A stretch of 64,000 nucleotides of DNA from Balneolaceae bacterium (GTDB lineage: Bacteria > Bacteroidota > Rhodothermia > Balneolales > Balneolaceae). The notes under the pieces were generated by a model. It was not told where the DNA came from. It ran no database searches and saw nothing but the letters and a program-made list of their open reading frames with translations. Positions 3,011-54,511 of the stretch are shown here, piece by piece. Both the position numbers and the translations under genes were made by a program. The DNA lies in NCBI GenBank assembly GCA_009711805.1, contig VEMX01000007.1, positions 62,001 to 126,000 of the forward strand, written 5' to 3'. The stretch's first letter is position 1; every line of letters begins with the position of its first letter.

Positions 3011-4060
3011 CTACACCTCAGCAAGTTTGCTTTTCAGTAAGTCGATTTTGGCGATAGGAGTAGGATCTACATTATTGACAAGGGCAAGATAAATACTGAT
3101 CCAGTCTCCAAGTTGAATAAGTGAAAACAGGCGGGCAAGTCTGCTTACTCCATAGGTTTCTATTTCTATCACAGAAAGAGCCTGGTCTATCACCAACTCT
3201 TCAACAATTTCCATCCGGCGCTGTACTTTGGGATGGTCTTTGGTATCCTTCAATAAAATAACGCTCAGACGGCCGGTAAGGTGAGCAATCTGTTCCCATC
3301 CCACAATTTCATTATGATTCATCTCCGGGAGTACGTTTCCATAGGCCAGCATCTTGGCATTCTCCTCAAATTGTCCGCGCCACCGCAGGTTTACCGGCTC
3401 CATCATCCCTGCATCTGAGTAGATAATGGGAAGTGTTTCGCTTAATTCTTCAGCTATGGCAAGTGCTTCGTTTCCATTTAAGTCTGAAAAGTCATCCACT
3501 CCTTCACGTAACAGCTTATAGGTTTCTTCCAGGGCTTCATCTCCTTCACCCAGAAAACCCAGTTTTTGAAAAATTCTGAAAAGAGGAACAAAGCTATATG
3601 CAAGAGCAGCGCGAGGCGGCATTCCTCCCGGAATCCTGATATAATCAAAGTCTTCTTTTTCAGCAGTAACCAATAATTGTCCCCCCGAGGTTACAGCAAT
3701 CACTTGAGCCCCCTTCTTTAAAGCATTTTCCAACGCCGACAAGGTTTCCTCTGTATTACCAGAGAAGCTACAGGTAACAAACAGGGTGTTTTCTCCAACC
3801 CATTCCGGAATTTCGTAATGACGGTTTACATAGACGGGTACCGGGCATGTCGTCAGGGAATAAGCCCTGGTCAGGTCGGCGCCTATGGCAGACCCTCCCA
3901 TCCCCGCAAAACATATATTTTCAATTTTACTTTCATCTATCGTGAGTTCCAGATCTGCGGTAGCAGCTACAATTTCCTGCCAGTGTTCAGGAAAAGCTTT
4001 CACCAGCCCCCACATATCTTGGGTATCTATATTCTTTATTTCGTCTTTGGTAATTGCCAT
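3011..4060 (-). CDS. Bifunctional phosphoglucose/phosphomannose isomerase
   Basis: A 349-residue SIS-domain sugar-phosphate isomerase, interconverting glucose-6-P or mannose-6-P with fructose-6-P in the cytoplasm. Sugar-phosphate-binding motifs are GMGGSAIGADL (about residues 53-63) and SFSGNTEETLSALE (98-111). The C-terminal half carries PEMNHNEIVGWE with the conserved catalytic Glu/His region of bacterial PGI/PMI enzymes. Its start codon overlaps the end of ptsI at position 4060, so translation is probably coupled and the three-gene HPr-EI-isomerase unit is one transcript. Whether one or both activities are present cannot be told from sequence. Confidence 0.88.
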   Translation of the reverse strand: MAITKDEIKNIDTQDMWGLVKAFPEHWQEIVAATADLELTIDESKIENICFAGMGGSAIGADLTRAYSLTTCPVPVYVNRHYEIPEWVGENTLFVTCSFSGNTEETLSALENALKKGAQVIAVTSGGQLLVTAEKEDFDYIRIPGGMPPRAALAYSFVPLFRIFQKLGFLGEGDEALEETYKLLREGVDDFSDLNGNEALAIAEELSETLPIIYSDAGMMEPVNLRWRGQFEENAKMLAYGNVLPEMNHNEIVGWEQIAHLTGRLSVILLKDTKDHPKVQRRMEIVEELVIDQALSVIEIETYGVSRLARLFSLIQLGDWISIYLALVNNVDPTPIAKIDLLKSKLAEV

Positions 4061-5787
4061 TATCTTTTTTTCCAGTCGTTAAATAGTTCCTGTACTTCTT
4101 TTGCTGATGTAAGCCTTAATGCATCCTGCCCCAGAGCTTCAAAATCTGTTTTTTTGTAAGAGCTTAATAGTTTTTTTATTCGTGGAATAGAATGAAGATT
4201 CATACTTAGCTCGTGTATCCCCAAACCAAATATACAAGCTGCTCCAATTTCGAGCCCGGCTAATTCACCACATACGCTCACTTCAATATCTGCTTCCCGG
4301 GCAGCCTTGTGGGTCATATCAATTAACTTTAAAACTGCCGGGTTGTAATGCTGAAACAGTGTACAAATATCTTCATTGCCCCGATCAACGGCCAGGGTAT
4401 ACTGTGTTAAATCGTTGGTGCCAATACTAAAAAAATCTACTTCCCTGGCAAACTCAAAAGCTGACAGAGCTACACTGGGTACTTCAACCATCAATCCCAG
4501 GGGTACACTTTCATCAATATTGATCCCTCCAGCGAGTAAATCGGATTGTGCCTGTTCCATCTCTTTCCGAATTTCGCCTACTTCTTCGATGACAGAGACC
4601 ATAGGTACTAATATTTTCACTCTACCCGGATAACTACCAGCCACTTTCAAAATAGCACGTAATTGTTTTCTGAGCATCTCACGCTCATCCAACAGCATTC
4701 GAATACCCCGCCATCCTAAAAAGGGATTAGCCTCTTTATTTGTCCGAATACTCCCTTTATCTCCCCCCACATCAAACAGTCGTATTGTAGCGGGTCCTTC
4801 AATACCTTTGAGCATCTTGGTATAAAAAGCGACCTGTTCTTCAAAACTTTTTTGAAACCTGCGGCCAAATAAAAGGGATTCCGTTCGCAACAATCCTACA
4901 CCCTGGGGCGAACTTTCTACGGCTTTATCAATTTCTTCTTCGAACTCCACATTGGCCAGTAAACGAAAAGGGAATCCATCCCTGGTTTCAAATTCTGCCT
5001 GTTGCTTTAACTGTAGGGCATCGGCGGCCAAGGCTTTTTGCCTGGCCCTATATCTTAAAATCGTATCCGAATCAGGATCAAAAACAACTTCTCCCAACTC
5101 ACCGTCAATGGCTGCATTTTTTGCTTCTGATGCTGCTTTCAATGCGTTTTTTGAACTTACCACACAGGGTATACCCAACGATTGTGCGATGATAGCGGCA
5201 TGCGATGTCACTCCCCCTTTTTCCATTACCAATCCTGCTATCCCATTTTCATAGTAAGAAATTAAATCGGTGGGACTCATTTCTTTGGTCACAATAATGG
5301 AACCTTCTTTTGCTTTTTGCTCCTCTCTTTTATCACAGACAAGCCGCACCAGTCGGTCTCGTATATCTTCCAGGTCTATAATGCGCTGCCGGAAGAGTTC
5401 GGAACCACTTTCCTTCAGGCGTTCAATAAATTCACAAAATGTCTGATAGACAGCAAAATCAACGCTCAGTCGTTTTTTTTCTATAATCTGATAAACTTTC
5501 TTTTCTACTTCAGGATCTTCTACAATCTGCTGTTGGGCTTCAATAATATCAGCTGAATTCCGATCGTTCAGCTCACGGCCCATCTGTACAAGCTCATCTG
5601 TCAATTCTTTTTTAGCATTCTGAAACCGTTGTTTATGTAGGATTACCGCATCTTCTTCAATTTGACGTGGCGATACCGTGGCAATCGTGGTATCTATCAC
5701 ATATATGTCTCCTACAGCAATTCCTCGGCTTCCAGCCTGACCTGTAATCAACAAACTTTCTTTTGATTCACTCATCTCATTCATCAT
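4060..5787 (-). CDS. ptsI: Phosphoenolpyruvate--protein phosphotransferase (EI)
   Basis: Enzyme I of the PTS: takes phosphate from PEP and passes it to HPr. 575 residues, full length. The phosphorylated His is in GGVTSHAAI (His196). The PEP-binding barrel follows with LLRTESLLFGRR, FDVGGDKG, VPMVSVIEEV, GTNDLTQYTLAVDRGNE and the active cysteine in VCGELAG. It overlaps HPr by 11 bp at its start and the isomerase at its end. No EIIB/EIIC sugar permease is in this window. An EIIA-like domain does occur on the permease at 18947-21049, so a regulatory rather than a transport PTS is possible (inference). Confidence 0.95.
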   Translation of the reverse strand: MMNEMSESKESLLITGQAGSRGIAVGDIYVIDTTIATVSPRQIEEDAVILHKQRFQNAKKELTDELVQMGRELNDRNSADIIEAQQQIVEDPEVEKKVYQIIEKKRLSVDFAVYQTFCEFIERLKESGSELFRQRIIDLEDIRDRLVRLVCDKREEQKAKEGSIIVTKEMSPTDLISYYENGIAGLVMEKGGVTSHAAIIAQSLGIPCVVSSKNALKAASEAKNAAIDGELGEVVFDPDSDTILRYRARQKALAADALQLKQQAEFETRDGFPFRLLANVEFEEEIDKAVESSPQGVGLLRTESLLFGRRFQKSFEEQVAFYTKMLKGIEGPATIRLFDVGGDKGSIRTNKEANPFLGWRGIRMLLDEREMLRKQLRAILKVAGSYPGRVKILVPMVSVIEEVGEIRKEMEQAQSDLLAGGINIDESVPLGLMVEVPSVALSAFEFAREVDFFSIGTNDLTQYTLAVDRGNEDICTLFQHYNPAVLKLIDMTHKAAREADIEVSVCGELAGLEIGAACIFGLGIHELSMNLHSIPRIKKLLSSYKKTDFEALGQDALRLTSAKEVQELFNDWKKR

Positions 5788-6049
5788 CCATTCCGAACTT
5801 GTTTTCTATAAGTTCCACAATTGTTTTCAGGGCTTTTTTCTCATCCGGGCCATCCATTTCCAATTCAAGCTCGGCTCCTTCTTCAGCTGCAAGGGTCATC
5901 ACTCCCAAAATACTTTTACCGTTTACCCGATATCCGTACATATGTATATAGAAATCAGATTCAAACTTGCTGGCAAGTTTTACCAATGCCGCCGAGGGCC
6001 GGGCATGCAAACCTGCTGAATTTAATATTGTGACTTTCTTTTTAATCAT
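5777..6049 (-). CDS. ptsH: HPr phosphocarrier protein
   Basis: A 90-residue HPr. The EI-phosphorylated His15 is in AGLHARPSA, and the regulatory serine is at the classical position 46 in NGKSILGVMTL. Both sites match HPr proteins that serve EI and HPr kinase. It is the first gene of the HPr-EI-isomerase run and the next gene overlaps its end by 11 bp. About 170 bp of unique DNA upstream precede repeat locus A and should contain its promoter. Confidence 0.93.
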   Translation of the reverse strand: MIKKKVTILNSAGLHARPSAALVKLASKFESDFYIHMYGYRVNGKSILGVMTLAAEEGAELELEMDGPDEKKALKTIVELIENKFGMDDE

Positions 6050-6540
6050 ATTGAAAATATAGCTTCATAAAATGAAAATAAAATAACCAACAATCCATTA
6101 AGGGCAGCGAATTTACGAAGTTTTTGCCTTACGTTTTTGAAGTGTTTAAATACCTGTTGTCTTAACAAGCTCAAGTATCAATGTAAGTGCGTAGCCACAG
6201 CTATTCCTTCGGATTACATATGGGGTGTCAGGGATTGTTTGCGGGCCTGATGAGTAAGTTTTTGATGATGGCACATTAAAGTTGATACGCTTATGTCTGC
6301 TCTGATATTCTAAAACCATCTGCGCAACTCAGCGGTTCATCTGCGGGCCTCTGCGAGAAAAGAGAAGTGGGAAAAGGCTGGGAGGTTGGTTTGGGTAGTG
6401 TAGTTTCACGCGGATTTTCGCAGAGTTAGGCGCAGAGTTTCGCGGAGTGAGGGCAGAGGTGATGAGTAATTTTCTGATGATGGCATATTAAAGTTCATAC
6501 GCCCATTCTTGCCCATATACAGAATCCGGTATTCCCAAAC

Positions 6541-7209
6541 CATCTGCGTAACTCAGCGTTTCATCTGCGAGCCTCTGCGAGAAAAGGAAAGTTTGGAAAA
6601 AGCTGGGGAGGTTGATTCGGACATGGTAGTTTCACACAGAGTTAGGCGCGTAGGGGGGATATTAGAGGTCATTTGCGAGCCTGATGATTGAGTTTTTTAA
6701 TGATGAAACATTGAAATTAATGAGTAATCCGAGTTTCTTATCTGAAAGTTTTAAATAGGTTAAGAGTTGTTTGTAGTGAACCTCAGCTAATGATTCAACG
6801 GATTTTATCTCGACAATTACTTTGTGGTTGACTAATAGATCCATTCGGAAGCCCTGTTCCATTTCAACTTCTTTATATACAACGGGCACTCCCAATTGAG
6901 TTAGTACGGTGAATCCATCGTTACGAAGCTCATAAGCTAATGCCTGCTCATACACGGATTCCAGTAATCCCGGTCCCAACGTGGAATGTACTTTAAATGC
7001 CGCTCCCCGAATGGCATACGATATATCATTTTCGTGCATAAATTCCCCGCTTTTTAGTTGAACATAGTATTCCAAAGCCATCGGCGCAACTCAGCGGTTC
7101 ATCTGCGAGCCTCTGCGAGAAAAAAGAAGTGGGAAAAGGCTGGGTGGTTGGTTTGGGTAGAGTAGTTTCACGCGGATTTTCGCAGAGTTAGGCGCAGAGT
7201 TTCGCGGAG
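6541..7209. repeat. Direct duplication, copy 1 (copy 2 at 7284-7949)
   Basis: A block of about 670 bp (leader, complete GxxExxY gene, second leader) is repeated at 7284-7949. The two genes differ by one base seen in the reading frame (Ser versus Pro, near the 3' end). Left of the genes the copies differ by a 3-bp indel in a G-run and by small changes in the leader. The unit length is about 740 bp. Near identity points to recent duplication or gene conversion. Confidence 0.85.
6662..7081 (-). CDS. GxxExxY family PD-(D/E)XK-fold protein, copy 1
   Basis: A 139-residue protein with the family-defining G-L-L-E-S-V-Y (GxxExxY) in GPGLLESVYEQALAYEL, near residues 36-52. The PD-(D/E)XK nuclease-like core is complete: Asp in FRMDLLV, then VIVEIKSVE (E-x-K), then QLLTYLKL (Q-xxx-Y). 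No catalytic residue appears to be missing. Members are known as PDDEXK_3/GxxExxY proteins; their biological role is undetermined. The start codon is embedded in the conserved repeat junction (CCATCGGCGCAACTCAGCGG on the plus strand). It differs from copy 2 by one residue (Ser for Pro about 15 residues from the end). Confidence 0.85.
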   Translation of the reverse strand: MALEYYVQLKSGEFMHENDISYAIRGAAFKVHSTLGPGLLESVYEQALAYELRNDGFTVLTQLGVPVVYKEVEMEQGFRMDLLVNHKVIVEIKSVESLAEVHYKQLLTYLKLSDKKLGLLINFNVSSLKNSIIRLANDL

Positions 7210-7401
7210 GGCCGGGGTTGTTTGCAGGCCTGATGATGGCACATTGAAATTTCTACACTCATGCCTGTCCGGTATTCCAGAACCATCTGCGTAACTCAGC
7301 GGTACATCTGCGAGCCTCTGCGAGAAAAGGAAAGTTTGGAAAAAGCTGGGGAGGTTGATTCGGACATGGTAGTTTCACACAGAGTTAGGCGCGTAGGGAT
7401 A

Positions 7402-7821
7402 TTAGAGGTCATTTGCGAGCCTGATGATTGAGTTTTTTAATGATGGAACATTGAAATTAATGAGTAATCCGAGTTTCTTATCTGAAAGTTTTAAATAGGT
7501 TAAGAGTTGTTTGTAGTGAACCTCAGCTAATGATTCAACGGATTTTATCTCGACAATTACTTTGTGGTTGACTAATAGATCCATTCGGAAGCCCTGTTCC
7601 ATTTCAACTTCTTTATATACAACGGGCACTCCCAATTGAGTTAGTACGGTGAATCCATCGTTACGAAGCTCATAAGCTAATGCCTGCTCATACACGGATT
7701 CCAGTAATCCCGGTCCCAACGTGGAATGTACTTTAAATGCCGCTCCCCGAATGGCATACGATATATCATTTTCGTGCATAAATTCCCCGCTTTTTAGTTG
7801 AACATAGTATTCCAAAGCCAT
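7402..7821 (-). CDS. GxxExxY family PD-(D/E)XK-fold protein, copy 2
   Basis: Second 139-residue GxxExxY protein, identical to copy 1 except for one Pro/Ser change near the C-terminus. The GxxExxY helix, the D...ExK triad and the QxxxY motif are all intact, so both genes look functional. It is flanked on both sides by the CTCTGCG-rich leader repeats. A short minus-strand reading frame upstream (8046-7957) runs into the leader and is not counted as a gene. Confidence 0.85.
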   Translation of the reverse strand: MALEYYVQLKSGEFMHENDISYAIRGAAFKVHSTLGPGLLESVYEQALAYELRNDGFTVLTQLGVPVVYKEVEMEQGFRMDLLVNHKVIVEIKSVESLAEVHYKQLLTYLKLSDKKLGLLINFNVPSLKNSIIRLANDL

Positions 7822-8111
7822 CGGCGCAACTCAGCGGTTCATCTGCGAGCCTCTGCGAGAAAAAAGAAGTGGGAAAAGGCTGGGTGGTTGGTTTGGGTAG
7901 AGTAGTTTCACGCGGATTTTCGCAGAGTTAGGCGCAGAGTTTCGCGGAGGGGGGTTATGCATGGTTTCGCCTTTCCTGATAAAGTCATCATTCAAAGCTG
8001 ACAGAAATAATTCTTTTTGTTTTGGGGAGGTCTCCTCTATTTTCAATTCATCATTAATCTTTCTCGGAATGTTTCTTAAATTCAGCCGAACTAATCAGAT
8101 CAAGTAATTTT

Positions 8112-14873: not shown

Positions 14874-16010
14874 TTATACCTCAGCATCCCGCTTAATTCT
14901 CTGCTTAAACACTTCCTTCATTTTCGACTTAAATTCCTCATGAGGCATATCCCCCGGAATACTTATTCTTCTGCAATCCAGACGGGTAAATGCCTTTTCC
15001 AGTCCTTCCCTCCATCTGCCTGTAATCTGCGCCGGATGAAATGGTGAGTCAGAAGAGATGTTAGTTTTTTTCAACCTCTCGAAAAACAATTTAAACTCCG
15101 ATTCCAGAATTTTAACAGTCTCGGCAGCGGCTTCTTCGGCACTTAATGTTTCTGTAACTATAGAACTCCCTTCATCTCTCTTCAAAATAAGATACCAGCT
15201 AACCGGCAGCTCTTTTCTTTCAAAATGTTCATATAGTTCACCGGGCGATATTCGTCTTCTAACCTTAGCCAGTCCCTTCATCGACTGGTACTTCCAGTGC
15301 ATCCGGTTTGCGGCTGATACATTACCAAGTAATCGCTGCTCTATTTCTGGTTTTCCATTCACATTGTAGGCATAGAGCTTGGGGTAGTTTAAATTGGGAA
15401 ATACTGTCCCCTTTGCGGATAGCACACAAATATCATCTGCTACGAACGAAGCTCCCCCCTCATAACAAAATTCTAACTCAAGTGATGTCTTTCCGACGCC
15501 TCCATATCCTCCAAAAAGAATTACCTCATCCCCCATTTTAATTGCTGAGCTGTGAATAGGATATACACCAACTTGGAAAACTAAACCAGGAACTAAAACT
15601 TGTTCATGAAACATCTGCCCGATTCGTTCCTGGCGGTTATTATAGCCTAAGCTCCGCCAACGCTGTAGCCAGCCATGTATACGATTTACCGGTTTCCTTA
15701 CGGCATATAAAATCCGGGCAAGTTGGTTTTCATCAAACACAAAACATAAACGGGCCAGCCTGTTATCTGCATGAATCCGGTTCTCTTCAGGGAAAACTCC
15801 TGCTTGTTGATCAAAATCTTGTTCTTCCAGAATTTCAATGCGTAGAACATTTTCTTTGTTCTCTCCTTGAGGATAGGCCGACAACTCCCTGAATAAAAGC
15901 CCGGCAAGTTCTGTATCTCTGCATACTACCTGCACATTTTTACCAAAAATTTTAAAAACTTCGGTATTCTTTGTGTTATTACTAAATTCATCCGCAGTGG
16001 AAAACGCCAT
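14874..16010 (-). CDS. HprK-like P-loop protein
   Basis: A 378-residue protein with a Walker A loop GGYGGVGKTSLE (residues 167-178) preceded by VYPIHSSAIKMGDEVILF and followed by SFVADDICVLSAKGTVFPN. The H-S-S-A, P-loop, V-A-D-D order is that of the HPr kinase/PEP carboxykinase-like fold. The N-terminal ~120 residues do not resemble HprK. Similar HprK-related proteins occur in polysaccharide and peptide-modification clusters with unknown substrates. It sits between a glycosyltransferase and a flippase but on the opposite strand. A true HPr kinase is possible since HPr here has Ser46, but the fold match is only partial. Confidence 0.65.
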   Translation of the reverse strand: MAFSTADEFSNNTKNTEVFKIFGKNVQVVCRDTELAGLLFRELSAYPQGENKENVLRIEILEEQDFDQQAGVFPEENRIHADNRLARLCFVFDENQLARILYAVRKPVNRIHGWLQRWRSLGYNNRQERIGQMFHEQVLVPGLVFQVGVYPIHSSAIKMGDEVILFGGYGGVGKTSLELEFCYEGGASFVADDICVLSAKGTVFPNLNYPKLYAYNVNGKPEIEQRLLGNVSAANRMHWKYQSMKGLAKVRRRISPGELYEHFERKELPVSWYLILKRDEGSSIVTETLSAEEAAAETVKILESEFKLFFERLKKTNISSDSPFHPAQITGRWREGLEKAFTRLDCRRISIPGDMPHEEFKSKMKEVFKQRIKRDAEV

Positions 16011-18946: not shown

Positions 18947-21049
18947 TTACTGGAGTGCCCTCAGTTTGCTGATATCATCTTTATCTCCAATAATCAACAA
19001 TTCATCGTTTTCCTGAAGCACGGTAACACCATGTGGTATCTTGATGGCTCCATTCCTTCGGATGATTGTTATCAGGCTTTGTCCAGGCAGGGTTATGTCT
19101 TTAATCATTTTTCCAATAAAAACCCTGGTGCCGTTATCACGGCTCAGGGTTAAACGAATAAACCGTTCGTCCCTGAGCAGGATTTCTTTGAGTTCTGCCC
19201 TGTTCTCTGCTGCAACCCAACGCTGAAGGAAATTGTTTGCCCCTACCCTCTCTGCTATGTGTGACAACATGCGCAGGTGCTGACCTGAGGTTTTATCTGA
19301 ACCGATGAAAAATAGGATACATTGCAATTTTTCATACGTTACTTTCTGGTTGTCCAGTTTTTTTATTTTAGTAATTTCAAAACCACTTTTTATTCGCACC
19401 ATCACCATTCTCGGAAGAATTTCTCCGCTGATGCGGGCATGATTTAATACCACGCCGTCTGCTATGGAAATGACCTTATCCTCGTCCATCTTAGAAAGAA
19501 AGCTGTGTATTTCACTAACGGAGCGATTTGATTTTTCCGCCAACCTCTTACTGGCTTTTTCGATGATGTATTCATAACTGATATCACTTTCAAATTCGAG
19601 TACGTCGGCCCGGGCTATCATTTCTTCATATGGATCTTCCCGGCGAAGCCCTTTTTCTCTTAGAATGGTACGCATCTCCCGTTCAAGTCCGCGATCCTTA
19701 AATTTACCCAACCGGGCATGAACATGATAAATTGCCCCTTGCCGGTCAATTTTACCATAAGAATAATAGTAATACCAACCCACGGAAAAGATCATCACTC
19801 CAATAACAAAAAGAATGGATACGATTCCCATTTCAAAAATCAATACCGTAGAAACCAGCATTCCAATTAATTGTACCCAAGGGTAAAAAGGAGATTTGTA
19901 CCCGGGATCATATTCTTCAATCTGGCTTTCCCTCATCACAATAACGGCAAAATTCAACAATCCAAATATCAATAGTTTAAAGGCACTGGCAAGCTTGGCC
20001 ACTTCAGATACATTAAAAGCCAGAATGATAAAAATCATAATCCCCATGGTAGCCACAACGGAGGTAGTGGGGGTATTATATTTTCCAAGCTTGGAAAATT
20101 TTGAAGAAAGAAGTGAATCCCTCGCCATAGCCAGCGGAAAACGAGAGGAGGATAGAATACCAGCATTGCCGGTGGAGGCAAAGGCCATAATGGCAGCTAT
20201 AACTACTAAAATCAACCCTGTGTCACCCGGCAACCAATCCATGAATACCCGACCCGCCGTAGCCACCGGAGTGAGGTCTTCCCGGAAGGCACCCGGCTCC
20301 AGGACAGCTGTCATCAAATACACCCCTGCCACATATACCACTATGGCTGTGAAGATGGAAAGAAACATACCCCGGGGTATGTTTATATCTGGATTTTTAA
20401 CTTCTTCAGCTATACTGGCTACCTTTGTCAAACCTGCGTAGGAAACAAATACCATACCCACCGTTCCTAAAAAGCCCTGGAATCCATTGATAAAAAATGG
20501 CGTGAATTGCTCCCGGTTTACATCCAGAAAATCCAGCTGAAAAAAGTATGAGAAACCCTGAACCAGGTAGAATGCCATAATTGTGATTAATATAGCCACC
20601 AAAATTTTTTGGAGTAAACTGGTTTCTTTGGCCCCGAATATATTTAAGGCTCCAAATGCAAGAGTCAGAATCACGGCAATTGGTGTAATCGGGACTTCAA
20701 AAAAGATAGATATATAAGCGCCCATTCCTATAAGAGCGAAAGCACTTTTAAAGGTAAGTGAGAACCAGGATCCAAATCCACCTATGCTTCCCATCAATGG
20801 CCCGAGACTGCGGTCAAGTATATAATAAGTTCCCCCTGCCCGCGGAAGAGCCGTGGCCAATTCTGCCTTACTGAATAAAGTGGGGAGAACCAAGATGCCT
20901 GATACCAGGTAAGCTAAAAACACCGAAGGGCCCGTTTCTGCAGCAGCCAATCCGGGAAGCAGAAAGAAACCAGAACTAAACATAGCCCCGGTTGCAATGG
21001 CATATACGTCAGATAGTCCGAGTTCCTTTGATAGTTTCTTATGCTCCAT
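18947..21049 (-). CDS. APC-family permease fused to EIIA-like and TrkA_C domains
   Basis: A 700-residue protein. Residues about 10-430 form a 12-helix amino-acid/polyamine permease (APC) domain with GAMFSSGFFLLPG and PRAGGTYYILDRSLGP. Residues about 475-620 resemble the PTS EIIA type-2 (mannitol/PtsN) fold. Its phosphorylation-site region ISIADGVVLNHARI keeps a histidine at residue 537, where PtsN-type proteins have GIAIPH. Residues about 625-698 look like a TrkA_C (RCK_C) regulatory domain: FIGKMIKDITLPGQSLI, then ENDELLIIGDKDDI. This suggests an amino-acid or cation transporter gated by phosphorylation and ligand binding (inference). It ends 9 bp from hisS, convergent. Confidence 0.82.
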   Translation of the reverse strand: MEHKKLSKELGLSDVYAIATGAMFSSGFFLLPGLAAAETGPSVFLAYLVSGILVLPTLFSKAELATALPRAGGTYYILDRSLGPLMGSIGGFGSWFSLTFKSAFALIGMGAYISIFFEVPITPIAVILTLAFGALNIFGAKETSLLQKILVAILITIMAFYLVQGFSYFFQLDFLDVNREQFTPFFINGFQGFLGTVGMVFVSYAGLTKVASIAEEVKNPDINIPRGMFLSIFTAIVVYVAGVYLMTAVLEPGAFREDLTPVATAGRVFMDWLPGDTGLILVVIAAIMAFASTGNAGILSSSRFPLAMARDSLLSSKFSKLGKYNTPTTSVVATMGIMIFIILAFNVSEVAKLASAFKLLIFGLLNFAVIVMRESQIEEYDPGYKSPFYPWVQLIGMLVSTVLIFEMGIVSILFVIGVMIFSVGWYYYYSYGKIDRQGAIYHVHARLGKFKDRGLEREMRTILREKGLRREDPYEEMIARADVLEFESDISYEYIIEKASKRLAEKSNRSVSEIHSFLSKMDEDKVISIADGVVLNHARISGEILPRMVMVRIKSGFEITKIKKLDNQKVTYEKLQCILFFIGSDKTSGQHLRMLSHIAERVGANNFLQRWVAAENRAELKEILLRDERFIRLTLSRDNGTRVFIGKMIKDITLPGQSLITIIRRNGAIKIPHGVTVLQENDELLIIGDKDDISKLRALQ

Positions 21050-21109: not shown

Positions 21110-21394
21110 CTATTCTAAAATATTCCGCCCATTCGTTGTAGGATCTGAATCAGAATTAAAAAAGTCTCTGATTCTTGAAAACATCCGTATGATATACGCA
21201 ATAATCAGCAACCCTATTAGTCCCTGAATTTTTACTCCCACTACCGGGTGGAGATTAATTAAACCGATTATCAGCATTTCGATTAAAAGCATCTCTATTA
21301 AGAAAGAGACAACAAATACCAGTGAAAGCCAAACCAGCTCTTTGATCATGATATTTCGCTTTAATCTATCCATACAGTTGATCATTGTATACAT
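21110..21394 (-). CDS. Small membrane protein, unknown
   Basis: A 94-residue ORF with two strongly hydrophobic segments (LVWLSLVFVVSFLIEMLLIEMLIIGL and IQGLIGLLIIAYIIRMF) and a short charged, asparagine-containing tail. It lies upstream of the APC permease gene on the same strand, about 60 bp away, and could be co-transcribed with it. Alternative starts exist at the Met codons of residues 4 and 8. No family recognised; likely a real gene because of the coherent two-helix pattern. Confidence 0.45.
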   Translation of the reverse strand: MYTMINCMDRLKRNIMIKELVWLSLVFVVSFLIEMLLIEMLIIGLINLHPVVGVKIQGLIGLLIIAYIIRMFSRIRDFFNSDSDPTTNGRNILE

Positions 21395-21582: not shown

Positions 21583-23427
21583 ATGGAACATCATATTCTC
21601 ATAGGTATTACCAGTGTTATTATTTTTGGGGTAGGGGCCCAATGGCTGGGCTGGCGTCTTAAGTTACCCGCTATATTATTGCTGCTTATATCAGGAATTG
21701 TAGCAGGACCTGTCTTGGGGTTGGTTGAACCTGACCGCCTGATGGGGGATCTGCTTACCCCTTTTATTTCTGTCTCCGTTGCCATTATCCTTTTTGAGGG
21801 TGGGTTAAGTCTGCGTTTCTCCGAGCTAAAGAACGTGGGGGGAGTTATTGGAAACCTGGTTAGTATAGGTGCTGTGCTTACCTGGATACTCTCGTCAAGC
21901 TTTGCCTACTACATATTTGGTTTTGGATGGGAATTAGCTGTTTTATTGGGAGCTATTCTCGTTGTAACAGGTCCAACCGTTATTATACCACTGCTTCGCC
22001 AGGTGCGCCCGGCCGGGCAAGTTGGTTCTATCCTGAAGTGGGAAGGTATTGTTATTGATCCTATCGGAGCCATGCTCGCCGTTTTGGTATTTGAGGTGAT
22101 ATTGTCCAGTGGACTGTCTGAAGCTACCAGTTTAGCGGTTATGAGCATTGTTAAAACCGTATTTTTTGGTACCGTAATTGGATTAGCCGGAGCCGGATTG
22201 TTATACCTGTTACTCAAAAAACACCTGTTACCCGATTTTCTTCAAAATCCGGTAAGCTTAATGGTTGTGGTAGCAGTCTTTACGGCTTCAGATATGTTCC
22301 AGCACGAATCTGGCCTGTGGGCAACCACTGTAATGGGGGTTGCACTTGCCAATCAAAAGGCGGCCCGGATTCATCATATTATTGAGTTTAAAGAGAACCT
22401 GAGGCTTCTGCTCCTTTCAGCTCTCTTTATCCTGCTTGCGGCCCGGGTTGAACTATCGAATCTGCTGAACAACCTGAACTGGGAGATGCTGGCTTTCCTG
22501 ATTTTTCTGATTTTTATTGTACGGCCTGCAGCTGTATATCTCTCAACGATTTTTTCATCTCTTAACTGGAAAGAGAAATTATTCCTGAGCTGGATGGCCC
22601 CACGGGGTGTGGTAGCAGCTTCCATTTCCTCAATCTTTGCCATTTCACTGATACAGAATGGTTTTGCTGAGGCCGAACAACTTGTATCTATTGTCTTCAT
22701 CACCATTATTAGTACGGTGGCCATTTATGGGCTCACTGCACCCTGGGTAGCCCGAAAGCTGGGAGTAGCCAAACCCATCCCCAAAGGTTTCCTCATTATT
22801 GGAGCCCACGACTGGGCCCTGGATATTGCCAAGGCTATACAAGATGTAGGCGGTAAAGTGTTAGTAGCCGATTCTAACTGGAAAAATATCAGTAAGGCCC
22901 GAAAACAAAATATCGATACCTATTACGGTAACGTTTTGTCGGAGTATGCGCTTGAATACATAGACCTGGATGGCATTGGCAGGCTGCTATCTCTAACGCC
23001 CAACGATGAAGTGAATACCCTGGCCGCCATTCGGTTTAGCGAGATATTTGGACGTTCTCATGTATTTCAACTTCCACCTAACTCCAAAACCTCTAAAGAA
23101 GAGAGCAAAGATGTTTCCAAAAGTTTGACCGGCCGCACCTTGTTTAAGGAAGACCTGAATTTTGACCGTTTCTCCTCCTTGGAAAGCCAGGGGCGTGTGA
23201 TAAAAACGGCAACATTAACCGAGACTTTTACTTTTGAAACCTACAAGGAAACCTATCAGAATGAAGCTGTGCCGTTGTTACTGGTTTCAAAAGACAATAA
23301 CATTCTTCCTTTTGTAATCGACAATCCTCCTACACCTCAGATCGGAGATATTGTAATTTCGCTGTCTGAACCCGATTCAGAGTTCCCGGAAGCTAATACT
23401 CCCGCCCAGAACCAAGTATCAGGATAA
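21583..23427 (+). CDS. CPA-type cation:proton antiporter with C-terminal RCK-like domain
   Basis: A 614-residue protein. Residues about 1-395 make a 12-13 helix CPA/NhaP-type Na+(K+)/H+ exchanger, including ALLLGAILVVTGPTVIIPLL-like sequence with the VTGPT motif and GIVIDPIGAMLAVLVFE with the ion-binding Asp. Residues about 398-500 resemble an RCK/TrkA_N nucleotide-binding domain (GFLIIGAHDWALDIAKAI ... LVADSNWKNI), although the glycine-rich loop is degenerate. The last ~100 residues are soluble. Likely role is pH, Na+ or K+ homeostasis in the inner membrane. The start codon follows a terminator-like hairpin. lysA begins 3 bp after its stop. Confidence 0.87.
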   Translation: MEHHILIGITSVIIFGVGAQWLGWRLKLPAILLLLISGIVAGPVLGLVEPDRLMGDLLTPFISVSVAIILFEGGLSLRFSELKNVGGVIGNLVSIGAVLTWILSSSFAYYIFGFGWELAVLLGAILVVTGPTVIIPLLRQVRPAGQVGSILKWEGIVIDPIGAMLAVLVFEVILSSGLSEATSLAVMSIVKTVFFGTVIGLAGAGLLYLLLKKHLLPDFLQNPVSLMVVVAVFTASDMFQHESGLWATTVMGVALANQKAARIHHIIEFKENLRLLLLSALFILLAARVELSNLLNNLNWEMLAFLIFLIFIVRPAAVYLSTIFSSLNWKEKLFLSWMAPRGVVAASISSIFAISLIQNGFAEAEQLVSIVFITIISTVAIYGLTAPWVARKLGVAKPIPKGFLIIGAHDWALDIAKAIQDVGGKVLVADSNWKNISKARKQNIDTYYGNVLSEYALEYIDLDGIGRLLSLTPNDEVNTLAAIRFSEIFGRSHVFQLPPNSKTSKEESKDVSKSLTGRTLFKEDLNFDRFSSLESQGRVIKTATLTETFTFETYKETYQNEAVPLLLVSKDNNILPFVIDNPPTPQIGDIVISLSEPDSEFPEANTPAQNQVSG

Positions 23428-27514: not shown

Positions 27515-28345
27515 AACCTCCACAAGCTTCAGGCCCGCAAACAACCTCTGCCTCACTCCGCGAAACTCTGCGTGAAACTACACTACCCAAACCAACCTCC
27601 CGACCTTTTTTTCAATTCCTCTTTCTCGCAGAGGCTCGCAGATGAAACGCTGAGTTACGCAGATGGTTCTGGAATATCGAACTATGGATGGACAGGTGTG
27701 AGCTTAGGGATTTCAATATCCATTCATCAGGCCTGCAAATAACCCCGCTCCTCTCCGCGAAACTCTGCGTGAAACTACACTACCCAAACCAACCTCCCAG
27801 CCTTTTTTTCAATTCCTCTTTCTCGCAGAGGCCCGCAGATGAAACGCTGAGTTGCGCAGATGGTTCTGGAATACCGGACAGGCATGAGTGTAGAAATTTC
27901 AATGTGCCATCATCAGGCCTGCAAACAACCCCGGCCCTCCGCGAAACTCTGCGTCTTACTCTGCGTCTTACTCTGCGTCTTACTCTGCGAAGATCCACGT
28001 GAAACTACACTACCCAAACCAACCTCCCGACCTTTTTTTCTATTCCTCTTTCTCGCAGAGGCTCGCAGATGAAACGCTGAGTTACGCAGATGGTTTGGGA
28101 ATACCGGATTCTGTATATGGGCAAGAATGGGCGTATGAACTTTAATATGCCATCATCAGAAAATTACTCATCACCTCTGATCTCACTCCGCGAAACTCTG
28201 CGCCTTACTCTGCGAAAATCCGCGTGAAACTACTCTACCCAAACCAACCTCCCAACTTTTTTTCAATCCCTCTTTTCTCGCAGAGGCCCGCAGATGAAAC
28301 GCTGAGTTGCGCCGATGGTTTTGGAATATCGGATTCGTGGGTGGG
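27515..28345 (+). mobile_element. Repeat locus B: four leader units with degenerate GxxExxY cores
   Basis: Same element family as locus A, sense on the plus strand, between the convergent genes lysC and the CNNM gene. Leaders lie at about 27556-27662, 27753-27859, 27937-28089 and 28186-28314. Cores lie at 27663-27752, 27860-27936, 28090-28185 and a truncated one from 28315; a partial core tail precedes the first leader (27515-27555). The core at 27860 reads ATGGTTCTGGAATAC...TTTCAATGTGCCATCATCAGG, a shortened GxxExxY gene. The third leader contains a 12-bp unit (TCTTACTCTGCG) three times in tandem. No intact gene remains. ORFs that span this block are read-through of the repeats. Confidence 0.75.
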
Positions 28346-53876: not shown

Positions 53877-53888
53877 GGGATTATAGAT

Positions 53889-54444
53889 TTCATGCAACTC
53901 AGCATTTCATCAGCGGGCCTCTGCGAGAGAAGAGTAGTTGGGAAAAGGCTGGAGAGGTTGGTTTGGGTAGTGTGGTTTCACGCGGATTTTCGCAGAGTAG
54001 GGCGCGGAGTTTCGCGGAGGGGTGGCGGGGTTGTTTGCAGGCCTGGTGATGGCACATTGAAATTCATCAGTCGTACTAGCCCCTATACAGAAATCTGTAT
54101 TCCAAAACCATCTGCGCAACTCAGCGGTTCATCTGCGGGCCTCTGCGAGAAAAGGGAAGTGGGGAAAAGGCTGGGGAGGTTGGTTTGGGTAGTGTGGTTT
54201 CACGCGGATTCTCGCAGAGTAGGGCGCGGAGTTTCGCGGAGGGGTGGCGGGGTTGTTTGCAGGCCTGGTGATGGCACATTGAAATTCCTGCACTCATGCC
54301 TATCCGGTATTCCCAAACCATCTGCGTAACTCAGCGGTTCATCAGCGGGCCTCTGCGAGAGAAAAGAGATTGAAAAAAGGCTGGGGAGCTTGGTTTGGAT
54401 AGTATAGTTTCACGCGGAGTTTCGCGGAGTGAGGTCAGAGGTGG
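53889..54444 (-). mobile_element. Repeat locus C: three leader units with degenerate GxxExxY cores
   Basis: Same element family, sense on the minus strand, between the convergent feo operon and a methyltransferase gene. Leaders lie at about 53890-54019, 54112-54241 and 54322-54429. Cores lie at 54020-54111 and 54242-54321, plus a fragment at 54430-54444. The cores retain, on the minus strand, ATGGTTTTGGAATAC or ATGGTTTGGGAATAC, then TTTCAATGTGCCATCACCAGGCCTGCAAA, the shortened ends of the GxxExxY gene. No intact gene. Several ORFs predicted across this block are only read-through of the repeat. Confidence 0.75.
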
Positions 54445-54511
54445 TGAAGGTCGTTTCTATTCAAATGTTGTCAACGATTTATTTAACATCTACACGGGTG
54501 ATGAATAAAAC

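Follow-up and report, generated by a model that had tools for sequence, protein, structure and literature searches.

A putative regulatory cassette of EIIANtr-like and RCK_C domains at the C-terminus of an amino-acid permease in Balneolaceae

Introduction

What is the function of a domain resembling a protein of the phosphotransferase system (PTS) when it is fused to the C-terminus of an amino-acid permease? The question is raised by a 64,000-nucleotide stretch of DNA from a Balneolaceae bacterium (contig VEMX01000007.1, positions 62001-126000; hereafter, the window), which encodes such a permease and also Enzyme I (EI) and HPr. An earlier note on this DNA proposed that phosphate from phosphoenolpyruvate (PEP) may pass through EI and HPr to a histidine in the permease tail and thus control amino-acid or cation transport. 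The window belongs to a genome of 4.08 Mb whose closest named relatives are Balneolaceae (e.g., Gracilimonas and Fodinibius); the host is marine or salt-loving. The way in which EIIANtr governs K+ and nitrogen physiology has long been an open question, for which conflicting models have been put forward in E. coli (PMC13104625), and transporters carrying a fused EIIA-RCK_C tail offer one-polypeptide systems in which the effect of EIIA and the need for its phosphorylation can be tested. No paper describing a permease of this architecture was found among the open-licence literature.

Domain architecture of the permease

The permease (700 aa; positions 18947..21049, minus strand) begins with an ATG codon and was delineated by its open reading frame, Pfam matches, and a family alignment. 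Residues 10-421 (19787..21022, minus strand) constitute an AA_permease_2 transmembrane domain (Pfam E 4.9e-43), which scores 148 bits against PF13520 and 132 bits against PF00324; its relatives in the PDB are the CAT-like transporter 6f34/5oqt and AdiC. No NCBIfam equivalog model reaches its own cut-off for the permease, and the substrates, judged at the level of the family only, are probably amino acids. The transmembrane part is followed by an EIIANtr-like domain (PTS_EIIA_2, residues 492-625; 19175..19576, minus strand), which is supported by Pfam, a PDB profile search, Foldseek, and hhalign, and by a TrkA_C (RCK_C) domain (residues 644-699; 18953..19120, minus strand) related to PDB chains 3jxo, 4j9u, and 4ys2/5f29. 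In the domain search that the earlier note had suggested, both exceeded the Pfam cut-off of 27 bits, PTS_EIIA_2 with 32.7 bits (E 8.8e-08) and TrkA_C with 43.5 bits (E 3.1e-11). A chance domain match can be ruled out, since all 24 members of the full-length family alignment match the three domains, and the PDB profile, Foldseek, and profile-profile alignment agree.

The fold of the tail was assessed in two further ways. A profile built from 69 tails, when compared with the PDB, recovered PtsN chains (4gqx, 1.7e-12; 3urr, 3.3e-12; 1a6j, 3.1e-09) as well as the TrkA/RCK_C chain 3jxo (2e-10). An AF2 model was also built for the tail (pLDDT 80, with the first 32 residues, a linker, being unreliable); Foldseek matched it to the IIANtr structures 1a6j, 2a0j, and 3urr (probability 1.0, target TM 0.73-0.82; 0.75-0.82 for 1a6j and 2a0j) and to TrkA RCK_C, while the N-terminal EIIA-fold domains of SLC4 anion exchangers gave a weaker structural match. 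The order of domains first read from the letters of this DNA, an EIIA-like domain and then an RCK_C-type domain, is thus upheld by Pfam, the PDB profile, and AF2/Foldseek.

Conservation of the putative active site

PtsN proteins have two invariant residues, the histidine and an arginine located 16 residues before it (PMC1201152); this arginine, common to all IIANtr and IIAMtl proteins, is R57 in E. coli and R51 in Neisseria (PMC1201152). In the permease, His537 (codon 19439..19441, minus strand) is aligned with His73 of E. coli PtsN, and profile-profile alignment with Balneolaceae PtsN (97.5%, E 5.9e-12) places it on the active histidine, i.e., at the phospho-acceptor position to which the earlier note had assigned it. 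The catalytic arginine is missing: position -16 is an arginine in 0/88 permease tails versus 15/15 local PtsN proteins. The RE..STG motif of PtsN has also been lost in the tails of APC permeases, and the residue preceding His537 is Asn, whereas it is Pro in PtsN ("PH" becoming "NH").

Among 88 relatives, the position of His537 is occupied by His in 62, Tyr in 20, Phe in 3, Asn in 2, and Gln in 1, with two lineages carrying Tyr or Phe instead of His. On a tree of these 88 proteins, built on the permease part only, switches between His and another residue were counted three times, and the column changed state 7 times in all, versus a median of 23.5 for the columns of the domain. With so few changes, the histidine matters where it is kept, and retention merely by descent is ruled out as the full story, as substitutions at this position are far fewer than elsewhere in the domain.

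Two arginines are conserved together with His537. Arg539 (codon 19433-19435, minus strand), at position +2, is found in 69 of the 88 relatives; in Neisseria PtsN, the +2 arginine has been suggested to coordinate the phosphate (PMC1201152). Arg552 (codon 19394-19396, minus strand), on the strand that follows the His strand, is kept in 62/62 His proteins and gone from 23 of the 26 non-His proteins, and its two losses fall on the same clades as those of the histidine. This co-loss is suggestive of a shared pocket, although the two or three independent events behind it are too small a number for a statistical test, and His537, Arg539, and Arg552 may all line that pocket. Because the same two clades have lost both His537 and Arg552, Arg552 could serve as a stand-in for the missing Arg57.

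Tandem paralogs of the permease occur at loci L106, L112, L105, L107, L113, L115, L117, and L156. Those at L106 and L112 are mixed: position 537 is His in one copy but Phe in its paralog, which gives each of these genomes a natural His/non-His pair.

Conservation along the permease is lowest in its EIIA half, and this, together with the three counted losses of the histidine, is what would be expected of a degenerate, functionless remnant in decay. Such a remnant is very improbable: the domain has been preserved in frame in members of several phyla and of two transporter superfamilies, and it retains invariant or near-invariant residues (R593 and F607 in 88/88, H591 and W611 in 87/88). The RCK_C part, in turn, holds several of the most conserved residues of the tail (P672, D682, R665, and G688), as would be the case if the RCK_C half were the active sensor (of K+, a nucleotide, or c-di-AMP, as in KtrC, CpaA, and BusR) and the EIIA-like half a structural adaptor. 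The RCK_C domain of the tail resembles chains solved with c-di-AMP (4ys2/5f29) and also KtrA and BusR, and RCK_C ligands such as c-di-AMP are possible because a single gene for a diadenylate cyclase (PF02457, 152.6 bits) is present in the genome. However, a pure adaptor leaves the constrained His and Arg positions unexplained, and no ydaO riboswitch was found upstream by Rfam in the window; we regard this division of labor as quite unlikely.

We favor, with modest confidence, an explanation in which the EIIA-RCK_C tail serves as a regulatory cassette gating the amino-acid transporter, its EIIA-like half mainly binding or sensing and not being a relay station. The cytoplasmic tail would gate transport according to the ionic or metabolic state of the cell, and its EIIA-like domain would act like PtsN bound to the tail of a transporter, but fused in cis. 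Having kept His537, Arg539, and Arg552, this diverged EIIA might bind or sense an anion, a nucleotide, or a partner protein rather than pass on phosphate from PEP; a role mainly in binding or sensing is suggested because the catalytic Arg and the RE..STG motif of PtsN have been lost.

The PTS of the genome and phosphorylation of the tail

Both PTS proteins reported for the window are encoded there with their active-site motifs. HPr (90 aa; 5777..6049, minus strand) contains the His15 motif GLHARPS and the Ser46-type motif KSILGVM, and EI (575 aa; 4060..5787, minus strand), the gene of which overlaps the end of the HPr gene, contains GGVTSHAA. This HPr is the only one in the genome, which also has one EI (counted by the EI-specific N-domain), one HPr kinase/phosphorylase (HPrK/P), and a single canonical PtsN, a stand-alone protein whose site is MSTGVGKGLAIPHAK (IPHAK). 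The absence of EIIB and EIIC, first remarked for the window, extends to the whole genome, in which neither PF02302 (EIIB) nor PF02378 (EIIC) was matched in a search confined to these two families. Because EI, HPr, and HPrK/P are present without EIIC or EIIB of the two searched families, the PTS looks regulatory (PTSNtr-like), and, given those families, PtsN looks like its standard end point.

Two statements of the earlier note need to be qualified in this respect. The permease had been described as lying next to the PTS; it shares the window with EI and HPr, but "next to" is loose, because a distance of 13-17 kb, in which unrelated genes lie, separates them from it. It had also been held that a full sugar PTS elsewhere in the genome, with its own EIIA as the only HPr partner, would speak against a relay to the permease. 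Half of this is found: the canonical PtsN is present and is the obvious partner of HPr, whereas EIIC and EIIB of the two searched families were not found.

The relay itself, in which phosphate would pass from PEP via EI and HPr to His537 and switch transport, Arg552 (and Arg539) replacing Arg57, is possible but rather doubtful. Several elements of it stand, namely, the tail does contain EIIA and RCK_C domains, EI and HPr are available, and His537 is placed and constrained as expected of a phospho-acceptor; moreover, the distributions of Arg552 and of the +2 arginine fit a site of this kind. The loss of the Arg57 equivalent and of RE..STG, the Asn before His537, and the genome's own PtsN all argue against it. 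HPr was found in all 48 sampled genomes, among 296 of the phylum, that have a full-length cassette in frames of the ~700-aa class, a class set by frame length plus full-length match and not by inspection of single proteins. Outside the permease's own family, 18/18 genomes with a full-length cassette have HPr versus 180/260 overall (Fisher p 0.001), a comparison confounded by descent. Yet HPr is also present in every checked genome of the two lineages with Tyr or Phe tails (e.g., Balneolaceae genomes G010 and G025), where the histidine has been dispensed with. In addition, HPr, EI, and stand-alone PtsN are all absent from seven of the genomes sampled, which belong to a single family (f13); four of the seven carry an EIIA-tailed antiporter, and all four tails keep His, Arg+2, and Arg+15. 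The rule that the histidine occurs only where HPr exists, to which the genomes with the permease cassette conform, is broken by these antiporter tails; therefore, the genome-level HPr test does not favor a relay. Judged from sequence, the conserved histidine is a sign of a functional pocket and not of HPr-dependent phosphorylation, because Tyr/Phe tails coexist with HPr and PTS-less genomes keep His. A caution follows for EIIA-like transporter tails in general: an aligned histidine is no proof of a phosphorelay.

Distribution of the cassette among transporters

The permease with the cassette is conserved in Balneolaceae, Cyclobacterium, Rhodothermales/Salinibacter, Gemmatimonadota, and a few other MAGs. 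Its divergent neighbor in the window (21583..23427, plus strand) is a CPA1 antiporter with TrkA_N that resembles YcgO/NhaP2, as indicated by NCBIfam PRK05326 (158 bits, below the cut-off of 355), and at 21 of the 79 permease loci an antiporter of this family is encoded close by. Two members of the same antiporter family in Rhodothermia (at loci L159 and L130) combine Na_H_Exchanger, TrkA_N, PTS_EIIA_2, and TrkA_C domains, with the last two forming their C-terminal tail, and further antiporters with an EIIA_2 plus TrkA_C tail are encoded at L213-L216. The EIIA-RCK_C tail is thus a portable cassette, carried by APC permeases in several phyla and by YcgO-like K+/H+ antiporters in Rhodothermia. 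It is conceivable, but unlikely, that EI and HPr phosphorylate His537 of the fused tail, with Arg552 replacing Arg57, and that the level of PEP would set amino-acid and K+/H+ transport jointly through the cassette shared by these two unrelated transporter superfamilies.

Other antiporters have tails that differ at the active site. Those of ~825 aa (Na_H_Exchanger, Usp, and an EIIA-like tail) mostly have Asp, Glu, or Lys, and once His, at the histidine position. Among those of ~760 aa (L218-L223), the proteins at L218, L219, L221, and L223 keep the Arg-Glu motif of PtsN and the PH site; the RE..PH site is complete in some (L218 and L223), which is a point in favor of the relay, and these four proteins are better candidates than the permease for direct phosphorylation by HPr, as far as their motifs tell. 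Given these antiporter classes with varied tails, EIIA-like tails are a recurrent accessory of transporters, with active sites ranging from intact to lost. The ~825-aa pseudo-EIIA antiporters (L114:3255-5732, L078, L079, and L080) are encoded directly upstream of the permease in some genomes.

A small upstream protein and other features of the window

Located 60 bp upstream of the permease on the same strand is a gene, recognized by its open reading frame and conservation, for a small hydrophobic protein with two predicted transmembrane segments (94 aa, with the true start possibly later; 21110..21394, minus strand). It is kept at the same place in Balneolaceae relatives (~20 matches over overlapping loci), has the motif DLHPVLSVKIQGLIGL..I.Y.IRM..R, and matches no Pfam or NCBIfam model. 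Its position and conservation suggest a possible role as a transporter subunit.

Elsewhere in the window, positions 6306-7954 contain a tandem duplication with two 139-aa open reading frames (6662-7081 and 7402-7821), the products of which are identical but for one residue and resemble proteins of the GxxExxY type; they are flanked by ~147-nt repeats in three local copies. Repeats of ~140-190 nt, spaced 200-230 nt apart, are found at 27552-28341, 53878-54497, and 6306-7954, and are both dispersed and clustered; those at 53.9-54.5 kb are related to the copies at 6.3-8.0 kb, and spurious open reading frames cross the repeats. In a glycosyltransferase region, a 378-aa protein (14874-16010, minus strand) has a P-loop-like GYGGVGKTS motif and matches no Pfam or NCBIfam model.

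Comparison with known systems

The transmembrane domain of the permease is like that of APC amino-acid transporters (GkApcT, 6f34/5oqt; TIGR00909); unlike members of TIGR00909, the protein scores 166 bits against a cut-off of 556.8 and has the tail in addition. The 56-70 C-terminal residues are like TrkA_C/RCK_C of TrkA, KtrA, and CpaA, but, in contrast to these proteins, the permease is devoid of RCK_N, which is found in the neighboring antiporter. The EIIA-like domain shares with canonical PtsN (PTS_EIIA_2, PF00359) the fold, the position of the histidine, a hydrophobic residue at -2, and a basic residue at +2, and differs from it in the absence of the RE motif and STG, in the Asn before the histidine, and in its fusion to a permease and RCK_C.

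An EIIA fold without a PTS role is already known from a membrane transporter, as the N-terminal domain of SLC4 proteins (band 3/AE/NBC) is a non-PTS EIIA fold fused to the transporter (PMC4664831). The permease tail is comparable in this sense, but SLC4 is a different transporter, its domain is N-terminal, and its structural match to the tail is the weaker one. A second precedent comes from E. coli, in which PtsN, as a free protein, inhibits YcgO in trans: its unphosphorylated form binds the tail of YcgO, a contact for which a block of activation through RCK has been proposed (PMC11808508). TrkA and KdpD are further binding partners of PtsN (PMC13104625). In contrast to the PtsN-YcgO/TrkA systems, the tail described here is fused in cis, belongs to an amino-acid permease, and has no catalytic Arg, and no CorC was detected by Pfam. 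As in those systems, an EIIANtr-fold domain would act on a transporter that bears RCK_C, and the antiporter encoded next to the permease is itself YcgO-like.
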